Shown: one piece after another, positions 10,600 through 35,034 of the stretch
Position numbering within the stretch: position 1 is the stretch's first letter
Layout: every line of letters begins with the position of its first letter
Origin: Alicyclobacillus kakegawensis NBRC 103104
Lineage (GTDB): Bacteria; Bacillota; Bacilli; Alicyclobacillales; Alicyclobacillaceae
DNA: 64,000 bases
Assembly: GCF_001552655.1 (NCBI RefSeq)
Contig: NZ_BCRP01000015.1
Coordinates: forward strand, 1-64,000
Reading direction: 5' to 3'
The notes under the pieces: generated by a model
What the model was told of the DNA's origin: nothing
Seen by the model: only the letters and a program-made list of their open reading frames with translations
The model's database searches: none
Made by a program: the position numbers and the translations under genes

Positions 10600-10675
<76 letters not shown>

Positions 10676-10690
10676 TATTCCTCGTGCGGT

Positions 10691-10765
10691 GCGGAAGTGG
10701 CTCAGGGGTAGAGCATCGCCTTGCCAAGGCGAGGGTCGCGGGTTCGAATCCCGTCTTCCGCTCCA
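10691..10765 (+). tRNA. tRNA-Gly (GCC)
   Basis: A 75-base cloverleaf with encoded CCA. The acceptor GCGGAAG pairs with CTTCCGC, the anticodon loop TTGCCAA carries GCC, and the T arm is GCGGGTTCGAATCCCGT. It lies 15 bases after tRNA-Phe, likely in the same transcript. Confidence 0.95.
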
Positions 10766-10769
10766 GAGT

Positions 10770-10843
<74 letters not shown>

Positions 10844-18009: not shown

Positions 18010-18084
18010 TGGTGGAACCGATGGGACTCGAACCCACAACCCCTGCGCTGCCAGCGCAGTGCTCTCCCATTGAGCTACGGTCCC
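18010..18084 (-). tRNA. tRNA-Ala (GGC)
   Basis: A 75-base cloverleaf with encoded CCA. Acceptor GGGACCG pairs with CGGTTCC (one G-U pair), the anticodon loop CTGGCAG carries GGC, and the T arm is GTGGGTTCGAGTCCCAT. It stands alone on the minus strand with its own terminator. Confidence 0.93.
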
Positions 18085-32432: not shown

Positions 32433-32607
32433 GTGCGCACACCTCCGTATGATGCTGCAAATTGCAGACCGCGAGATCGCCCGCCGCTGGGCATGCGGCC
32501 CGCTGAGGGCAATTGTTGGCGCGACCTCACAGGTTCACATCGGCAACGATTGCGCTTCTAGTGAACCATACACCCCATTCTCCCGAATTATGACGAAAAA
32601 ATGAAGA

Positions 32608-32632
32608 GAGACAGGAGAAATTCTCCTGTCTC
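32608..32632 (-). terminator. Terminator of the ComA-like/FolC-like pair
   Basis: GAGACAGGAG and CTCCTGTCTC form a perfect 10-bp stem with a 5-base loop; read on the minus strand it is followed by TCTTCATTTTTTCG. It lies 27 bases past the ComA-like stop codon. Confidence 0.8.
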
Positions 32633-32658
32633 CCGCTCATTCCCACAACGGCCGACGC

Positions 32659-33588
32659 TCAGGAAGGGGCGTCCCTGTGTCTGCGTCCAGACGGCCCGCG
32701 GCGCCCGTCCAGCCAAATCACAGGCCCTGCGGTCTCCGCTCGCGGCCTCGGCGGCGGTGCGTCCAACGCCGATGGGGCCGCTTCTGCCCCTTGCTCATCG
32801 GCGGCCTCCTCAAGCCACACCCACTCGGGATCCACGCCCCGCCGGAGCCCTTCCAGCACGGCCACCGACTCCGGCGCCACGTCGCCGAGGTTTAGCTTCG
32901 TCCCCAACTCCGCGAGCAGGCGGAATTGCAGGAGCCGACTGGGGGTTTTCAGGATCAGCCGGTTCTGCAACGGACCGACGCCCTCCAGGATATTGGCGAG
33001 GCGACGTTTTTGCCGCCCCCACCACATATCGTCGGCCCCCCTGGGCCCATACGGCAGCGGCAGCAAAATGTAATCCGCCCCCGCCTGCAGGTCGGCGTGC
33101 AGGTGGCGGACGACCGTGTCCACGCTCGCGCCGGCCGCGCGCCGCGGCACCTGCGACAGCACCAACAGTCCCAGCGCGTGCGCGCGGCGAACGACGTCCC
33201 GGCGCTGACGCGGGCCCATACGCTCCGGTTCATCCGCCATGATCAGCGCCCGCAACCCTGCCTCAGCCACAGACTGGATATACGCGGGCAAAGCGTCCTG
33301 ATCCCAGGCCGCGGCGAACGCCTGGCCGCTGGGACAGGCCAACACCCCGTACTCCTGGCACAAGCACACCTTATCCATAACCCATTCGGGCGCGCGCATC
33401 ACGGCGTGGCACCCGGACAACAACCAGAAATCGATGCCTTCAGCGGCTGCCTGCAAGCAGTCGCGCATGCCCGCCGAGGTCATCCCATCGTCGAGCACCA
33501 CTGTCAGCCCGGCAATCCGAGGTTTCCCGACTCGTTCGCGCAGCGACTGGCGCATCCAATCCGTCCAATGTGCACGGTCCACCGTCAC
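32659..33588 (-). CDS. Divergent ComA-family (phosphosulfolactate synthase-like) TIM-barrel protein
   Basis: 309 residues. The first 250 follow the ComA/YitD pattern: a strand RIAGLTVVLDDGMT, a helix, then GIDFWLLSGCHAVM, YGVLACPSGQAF, AEAGLRALIMADEPE and a later ALGLLVLSQVPRR. In true phosphosulfolactate synthases the first strand ends in DKG and the second has KLG; here they are DDG (residues 33-35) and LLSGC, so the usual lysines are replaced and the standard reaction with phosphoenolpyruvate and sulfite is doubtful. The last 50 residues are low-complexity (Pro/Arg/Asp). It follows the FolC-like gene by 57 bases on the same strand, so the two are likely one transcript. Confidence 0.55.
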   Translation of the reverse strand: MTVDRAHWTDWMRQSLRERVGKPRIAGLTVVLDDGMTSAGMRDCLQAAAEGIDFWLLSGCHAVMRAPEWVMDKVCLCQEYGVLACPSGQAFAAAWDQDALPAYIQSVAEAGLRALIMADEPERMGPRQRRDVVRRAHALGLLVLSQVPRRAAGASVDTVVRHLHADLQAGADYILLPLPYGPRGADDMWWGRQKRRLANILEGVGPLQNRLILKTPSRLLQFRLLAELGTKLNLGDVAPESVAVLEGLRRGVDPEWVWLEEAADEQGAEAAPSALDAPPPRPRAETAGPVIWLDGRRGPSGRRHRDAPS

Positions 33589-33645
33589 ACCTCCCGAGGC
33601 CCCAATTTGCCTACACCAGCATATGGGCGGGAAAAGGGGAAGGTG

Positions 33646-35034
33646 TCATTCCTCCGGGCGCCAGATGGTCCGCGTGTCGACAGCAAAGTGCTGCATCACG
33701 TCGGCCACAAAGGACTGGGTCCCCAACAACAGCAAGCCGTCCGCCGGCTCAACGCGAGCCCGCGCTGTGTCCAGCGCACGCGTCACGTCCGGCACCCACT
33801 CGCTGCGCATGCCGAGGGCGCGCGCTGCGCGGCAGAAACGGTCATCAAACCGCAGGTGCGGGTTGCTGGCCCGGGTCCACACCACCCACTGCACGTGCTC
33901 CCGGAGCACGCCCAGCACGCCCATCCCGTCCTTGTCCACAGGAATGGCGAGCACGGCCCCAAACCGCTGCACCGAGCCGCGGCGCTTGGCCGATGCGGCC
34001 CAGGCTGCGACGTGCACAGCCGTTTCGCGGTGTACTGTGCCATCCACCAGCACCAGCGGACGCCGGTCTATCACTTCCATGCGGCCCGGCAACCGAATGC
34101 GCCTCAGGTCAATCTCTTCCGGCAGCAACGCTCTCAGGCCCTGTCGCTGTTTCACCACCCGCCTGGCCGCTGCCGCGGCCACAGCGGCGTTGCGGGCGAG
34201 GAAATCGGGAACCACCGGCAGGCGGATGCAGGTTTCGTCTCCGGCGGCAAAACGCACCCGCACCCGTACCTCGTCCCTATCCGGCGGCACATCCACGCCG
34301 GCCGAAAAGTCGCGGCCCAGCAGCTGCACATCCGTCCCCTCTGGCCAACACCGGCGCCACACCGCCTGCACCGTCTCCGACTGAGGGTGGCTGACCAGCC
34401 AACGGGTCTCCGCCCGCAGGACCCCCGCCTTTTCCCGCGCCACGTCGGGCAACGTCGGCCCCAGCTCCCGCGCGTGTTCCAGGAACACGGGTGTCAACAA
34501 CGCGCCTTGATGACGGACCTGATTCACATCGTCGTGCAACGCCCCGCGCCCGAGTTCAAACACGTTGACATCCGTCTGCTCGTCAGCAAACCACAGCGCG
34601 GCCACGCACGCCAACAGGCCCACCGGCCCGATGTATTGATTGGGAGGCACAGGCAACCGTCTCGCTTCGTCGTACACCTGTGTCATCCAGTGTACAAACG
34701 CCGCTTCCGGCATCACCTGTCCACCCAGACGAATCCGCTCCATGAAGTCGATCAGGTGCGGGCTGGTAAACAGCCCCACGCGCAAGCCCAGCAGCTGGAG
34801 AATGGCCGCCAGAAGAATCGCATTCGATCCCTTGCCCTTGCTGCCGGTGACAGCCACGTTGAACGCAGCCGCATCCGGATTCGCCAACTCCGCCAGGAGG
34901 CGTCCGGTCCACTCTGGATGGCGCACCACCCTGTCGGGCCCATCTGGCAGCAGCGGGCGCGCCCGGTTCAACCATTCGTAAATCAGCGCGATGGCTTCCC
35001 GTGTTGTGTATCGTTGCCCTGTTTCCAATCCCAT
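33646..35034 (-). CDS. FolC-like Mur-ligase family enzyme
   Basis: 462 residues with the two-domain ATP-dependent amide ligase layout of folylpolyglutamate synthase: P-loop VTGSKGKGS (residues 62-70), GLFTSPHLIDFMERIR, and a middle LPGRMEVI. The usual C-terminal DGAHNP is here DGTVHRETA, and the conserved Asn is absent. The start codon follows a weak ribosome site. Normal FolC adds glutamate to folate; the altered second domain and the pairing with a ComA-like protein argue for another acceptor acid. It is not a typical PgsB/CapB either, since it lacks the membrane segment. Confidence 0.65.
   Translation of the reverse strand: MGLETGQRYTTREAIALIYEWLNRARPLLPDGPDRVVRHPEWTGRLLAELANPDAAAFNVAVTGSKGKGSNAILLAAILQLLGLRVGLFTSPHLIDFMERIRLGGQVMPEAAFVHWMTQVYDEARRLPVPPNQYIGPVGLLACVAALWFADEQTDVNVFELGRGALHDDVNQVRHQGALLTPVFLEHARELGPTLPDVAREKAGVLRAETRWLVSHPQSETVQAVWRRCWPEGTDVQLLGRDFSAGVDVPPDRDEVRVRVRFAAGDETCIRLPVVPDFLARNAAVAAAAARRVVKQRQGLRALLPEEIDLRRIRLPGRMEVIDRRPLVLVDGTVHRETAVHVAAWAASAKRRGSVQRFGAVLAIPVDKDGMGVLGVLREHVQWVVWTRASNPHLRFDDRFCRAARALGMRSEWVPDVTRALDTARARVEPADGLLLLGTQSFVADVMQHFAVDTRTIWRPEE

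Follow-up and report, generated by a model that had tools for sequence, protein, structure and literature searches.

A FolC-like Mur ligase of a separate clade and a degenerate ComA-like barrel form a two-gene unit in Alicyclobacillus kakegawensis

Phosphosulfolactate synthases of the ComA/YitD type are TIM-barrel proteins whose substrates are phosphoenolpyruvate (PEP) and sulfite. Folylpolyglutamate synthases (FPGS/FolC) carry the motifs GTNGKGS, PTEFE and DGAHN. The window analyzed here, that is, the whole stretch of 64,000 nucleotides of A. kakegawensis DNA, encodes a relative of each of these families in two neighboring genes. A literature search for phosphosulfolactate synthase together with Mur ligase returned only a methanogen genome paper, and searches for phosphosulfolactate synthase with folylpolyglutamate synthase, or for FolC-like with Mur ligase, returned nothing. 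Among the papers listed by a broad search, none dealt with the ligase clade described below, and none of the ComA papers listed assigned roles to individual residues.

Both genes lie on the reverse strand. The upstream gene of the unit encodes the FolC-like Mur ligase (462 residues, 33646-35034(-)) and the downstream gene the ComA-like TIM barrel, a degenerate phosphosulfolactate synthase of 309 residues when counted from the first GTG (32659-33588(-)), with a spacing of 57 nt between them. The ComA-like gene probably starts at the GTG at 33582 (307 residues), as this codon has a better-spaced GGGAGG. An intrinsic terminator of 13 pairs with a T-run closes the unit at 32606-32634(-), with a folding energy of -28.9 kcal/mol and a z-score of -6.04. 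The two adjacent genes and their own strong terminator, as described in an earlier sequence-only reading of this DNA, were thus borne out. Alicyclobacillus shizuokensis (L037) is a relative at 85% identity. A search for a defence role with PADLOC gave zero matches for the four proteins tested. Among RNA elements, only tRNAs exceeded the gathering scores in the window, with three clustered tRNA genes at 10600-10840(+) and one at 18013-18084(-).

The upstream protein belongs to the Mur ligase superfamily by its P-loop, its Glu, His and Lys residues and its three-domain fold. AlphaFold predicts its structure with a mean pLDDT of 90.6, and the top PDB folds for this model are FPGS/FolC proteins (1jbv, Foldseek E-value 9.1e-29, TMt 0.86). 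The P-loop GSKGKGS spans residues 64-70 (34825-34845(-)). Its K68, together with E160, H187 and K202, is invariant over 17 sequences from the family, which all share the P-loop and a DG[TCA][IV]H motif. The last three residues align with E143, H170 and K185 of L. casei FPGS, which we take to be catalytic positions; they presumably correspond to the metal-site Glu and His and to the carbamylatable Lys of Mur ligases. Judged from this alignment, the machinery of the ligase is intact, and the protein does not appear as an altered FolC peculiar to this gene pair. Because its score of 188.1 bits on TIGR01499, the model of the FolC subfamily, lies above the cut-off of 162.65, some folate activity may be present.

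The FolC motifs GTNGKGS, PTEFE and DGAHN are nevertheless absent from the window ligase. As the sequence-only reading had seen, DGTVHRETA stands in place of DGAHN with the P-loop kept; DGTVH covers residues 331-335 (34030-34044(-)) and follows the family form DG[ATCLM][IV][HNSC]. We searched a draw of 348 Bacillota genomes with the ligase profile at an E-value of 1e-60 and obtained 34 matches: the window genome, 24 genomes scoring 272-387 bits and another 9 with scores of 205-213 bits, five of which were aligned. All 24 high-scoring sequences have GSKGKG and an Ile or Val at the position of the His of FolC DGAHN, and the signature GSKGKG, GPVG or GPNG, and DGx[IV] (not DGAHN) was found in every ligase row inspected, 24 outside the family and three inside. 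The eight FolC rows, comprising the five low scorers, two FolC genes that adjoin ligase genes and the FolC of the window genome, have GTNGKGS and D[GAV]AHN. In a tree from which two fragmentary rows were excluded, 25 FolC-like rows separate from these eight at 100/100, so the window ligase does not group inside the FolC clade. From the alignment and the tree, the changed motif is therefore a mark of the ligase's own clade and not of the pairing with ComA. The window genome also encodes a separate canonical FolC on another contig (345.3 bits). Given this separate FolC, the motif common to the whole clade and the 100/100 split, the ligase probably acts outside folate metabolism and would join something else. 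A class-level draw at an E-value of 1e-70 gave ligase matches in 52 of 398 genomes, 28 from the window family and 24 from outside it.

Outside Alicyclobacillaceae, no ComA or MntP-like gene was present in 24 ligase loci with 1.5 kb flanks, nor in 24 loci with longer flanks, the two sets being partly the same places. Of the 24 genomes there that carry the ligase, two have a ComA above cut-off and 22 have none. In a Paenibacillus-like genus, an N-formylglutamate amidohydrolase-like (FGase-like) gene and a RimK-type ATP-grasp gene adjoin the ligase in all three loci (by Pfam in one of them). These loci (L109, L208 and L209, from G057, G563 and G683) contain the ligase, the amidohydrolase-like gene, a gene for an unplaced protein of 404 residues and the ATP-grasp gene, and represent a possible small-peptide cluster. 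A second Mur ligase gene lies directly upstream of the ligase in 5/5 loci of family f62 (two by Pfam). In the sister family f2, a penicillin-binding protein gene is upstream in four of six loci, one of the six being cut by a contig end, and SpoVR is nearby. At L198, L201, L203 and L217 of this family, the transpeptidase-type penicillin-binding protein gene immediately precedes the ligase and a PASTA-bearing one follows in two loci. Other neighbors are hpf, pgi or valS, names that were read from sequence; the remaining neighbors were named by Pfam where their proteins were tested. These neighborhoods hint at peptide or envelope chemistry, without agreement on one pathway. Outside the family, 13 of the 24 genomes with the ligase have the sporulation gene spoIVA; among 56 ligase-less genomes, which form part of the negatives of the same draw, 50 have it. 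Because spoIVA is missing from the remaining 11 of the 24, the ligase cannot be an enzyme of spores alone; a spore-specific role as a general rule was rejected, and with it the spore hint of the sequence-only reading.

The downstream protein is a member of Pfam PF02679 (112.7 bits, gathering cut-off 25.2), which assigns it to the sequence family only, and it fails the equivalog model TIGR03849 (112.1 bits, cut-off 280). L042 from a relative, the sole intact linked ortholog scored on TIGR03849, passes with 285.9 bits. The canonical ComA of the window genome, encoded on another contig, scores 282.2 bits; it is of the YitD type and reaches 227.4 bits on TIGR03849, also below 280. The AlphaFold model of the ComA-like protein has a mean pLDDT of 81.8 and its best PDB match is 1qwg. 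We aligned 60 ComA rows, including one gene twice (L072 = L167), of which 55 are intact. Among these 55, 29 polar columns are near-invariant and each row keeps 23-29 of them. In the window copy 13 are left; the counts are 13 and 14 for the two other members of its genus, and 17 and 16 for the two copies from lineage g12. Replaced positions in the window copy include K56, E92, E116, K150, E177, R179, E214 and N236; K56, the Lys of KFG, is kept in 55/55 intact rows. The window copy does have the DDG and LLSGC motifs noticed earlier; at these positions the other ComA rows read D[K/T/S/N]G and K[FL]. The notion of DKG as the ComA norm fits some rows, including three intact linked copies, but its Lys is T, S or N in other intact relatives and is thus not universal. 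A third class of ComA paralogs occurs away from the ligase in several family genomes (L061-L064, L066, L067, L071, L072 and L075). These paralogs mostly have DKG and keep all near-invariant residues, and one of them scores 307 bits on TIGR03849.

Purifying selection still acts on the ComA-like gene, most clearly at its C-terminal tail. The dN/dS ratio against G001 is 0.176 for the ComA-like gene and 0.193 for the ligase gene, with 0.046-0.174 for seven neighbors; against G002 the ComA-like gene has a dN/dS of 0.08 at saturated dS. The tail peptide GPVIWLDGRRG (residues 288-298, 32695-32727(-)) follows a disordered linker and lies in a region with pLDDT below 50. It is identical in the genus, and between the window and G002 eight of its 11 codons differ, all synonymously, which indicates selection on a short peptide within a predicted disordered tail. 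All 23 linked ComA-like proteins have an [LI]W motif after a variable linker. The ligase was rejected as a necessary partner of this motif, as the tail is kept in the ligase-less G009 and G017, and so was MntP, as the window genus, G010 and G012 have the tail but no MntP gene in between. A move of the tail to the canonical ComA after loss of the linked copy was also considered and is weak: six of the ten g4 genomes examined have a Trp near the C-terminus of this protein and four have none. The six W-tailed genomes are without a linked ComA, and their canonical ComA proteins (L076, L069 and L149-L152) end in a short tail, EPALWHS and variants, with ALW, AFW or VAW.

We searched 34 genomes of the family with the ligase, MntP-like and ComA-like profiles; G031, G034 and G035, which were not searched with all three, were not counted. 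In 16/34, all three genes are present with the MntP-like gene in between, and in another 5/34 (the window genus, G010 and G012) the linked MntP-like gene is missing, so that ligase and ComA-like genes are linked, directly or across the MntP-like gene, in 21/34. Eight genomes keep the ligase without a linked ComA, two keep the linked ComA without the ligase, two lack all three genes, and in one the locus runs off its contig. In genomes that have lost ComA, among the matches listed, the citrate synthase gene, which belongs to the syntenic block of this locus, comes shortly after the MntP-like gene. This block is wider than the trio, and adjacency is therefore weak evidence of shared function. 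The MntP-like protein (PF02659) encoded between the two genes scores 107.5 bits in one copy, and the search of the window genome found a single, distant MntP-like copy (57.7 bits), which lies on a different contig. The long branches of the ComA tree meet, and by itself it cannot settle between single and repeated decay. In a tree of neighboring genes, g12 groups with the ComA-less g4 at 98.6/100, away from the window genus, and the decay of ComA thus happened at least twice. In a third lineage, g4, the sister of g12, the linked ComA gene is lost.

The two proteins could act one after the other in a single unusual pathway, in which the barrel would produce an organic acid and the ligase would join an amino acid to it. 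The linkage in 21 family genomes is in line with this reading, and since intact linked copies keep the synthase residues, an ancestral pathway of this kind is possible in relatives. We judge it improbable for the window, as the catalytic set of its barrel is gone, either gene can be found without its partner in family genomes, ComA is absent from both sets of 24 loci outside the family and from 22 of the 24 genomes, and the adjacency sits in a wider syntenic block. ComB (PF04029) also exceeds its cut-off in no more than 8 of the 26 family genomes, and the window genome lacks it. The sequence-only reading had proposed a shared but different chemistry. Its second half stands insofar as the ligase is probably non-folate; a chemistry shared with the barrel found no support, given the lost catalytic set, a barrel mouth that is not better conserved and genes that are separable in the family. 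The two genes co-occur within the family and were found adjacent in none of the 24 ligase-bearing genomes outside it. The catalytic positions of the ligase are invariant over 17 rows; the barrel keeps 13 of 29 near-invariant polar residues.

The ComA-like protein might also be a re-tooled enzyme in which DDG, LSGCH, MADE and LKTP form a new active site for a new reaction. All three members of the genus have the same DDG, LSGCH, CPSG, MAD and LKT, the barrel is predicted to be well folded, and selection is purifying. We nonetheless regard this as quite unlikely, because the loops that follow strands 5 to 7 are variable (SQVPRR/AELSHH, LPLPYG/LPLPSW and LKTPSR/LKTRNP) and conservation at the mouth does not exceed that of the remaining protein. 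The mouth/rest identity ratio is 0.88-0.98 in the window genus, compared with an average of 1.31 across 153 pairs of intact linked copies. The second lineage, moreover, decayed independently and with partly different replacements. Conversely, the gene could be a functionless relic in the course of being lost, as suggested by the decayed copy in g12 and its absence from the sister g4, by the somewhat raised dN/dS and by the linked MntP gene already gone from the genus. The low dN/dS against both G001 and G002 (the latter with dS saturated), the ORF kept intact in three genus genomes and the purely synonymous changes in the tail make this unlikely as well.

Rather, the locus appears to tell two separate stories, that of an orphan Mur ligase clade caught by the FolC model and that of a pseudoenzyme derived from phosphosulfolactate synthase. 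The explanation that we favor, and hold to be somewhat better than an even bet, is an orphan amide ligase beside a non-catalytic pseudoenzyme carrying a docking tail; with similar confidence in the explanation as a whole, we consider the pair to be a remnant of an operon specific to Alicyclobacillaceae. In its fullest form, this inherited operon encodes the FolC-like ligase, an MntP-type membrane protein and a ComA-like synthase. From its predicted fold and aligned catalytic residues, the ligase would most likely use ATP to join an amine (an amino acid or a peptide) to a non-folate carboxylate via an acyl phosphate. The ComA-like protein descends from a phosphosulfolactate synthase, an enzyme acting on PEP and sulfite. 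Its catalytic residues have been lost in the genus and its tail is under selection, and it most likely persists as a non-catalytic fold that presents GPVIWLDGRRG as a docking peptide. The partner of the tail need be the product of neither neighboring gene, since genomes without the ligase, and others without the MntP gene between, still have the tail. Some observations run counter to this explanation: the contexts of the ligase gene outside the family are heterogeneous, both genes evolve somewhat faster than most neighbors, which also fits a slow decay of the ComA-like gene, and the identity of the mouth residues LSGCH and MAD in three genus members leaves room for a changed activity. More tentatively, a widespread Bacillota clade of Mur-type ligases may perform an undescribed amide ligation, and may have been combined in Alicyclobacillaceae with an MntP-type protein and a synthase that twice turned into a pseudoenzyme, a scaffold recruiting its partner by a C-terminal LW peptide.

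Compared with FolC (TIGR01499; PDB 1jbv and 1w78), the ligase has the same fold, P-loop and catalytic Glu, His and Lys positions. It differs by GSKGKG, GPVG, DGTVH and GTQS where FolC has GTNGKG, PTEFE, DGAHN and GS.Y, and by its separate clade in a genome where FolC is present as its own gene. Members of this clade, found in 24 other genomes of the 348, pass the FolC model, and annotation by that model would label them folate enzymes; the signature separates them from FolC and makes their real substrate a testable question. MntP/YtaF-type membrane proteins (PF02659) are matched by the middle gene of the family trio, whereas the window unit is without a gene in between. With ComA/YitD phosphosulfolactate synthases (PF02679, TIGR03849; PDB 1qwg and 1u83), the window barrel shares the sequence family and the TIM-barrel fold, but the eight residues listed above, from K56 to N236, are replaced and it has an extra C-terminal tail. 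It offers a clear case, with separate decay in two lineages, of selection maintaining an enzyme fold whose catalytic residues are gone, with GPVIWLDGRRG as a precise peptide for binding tests.
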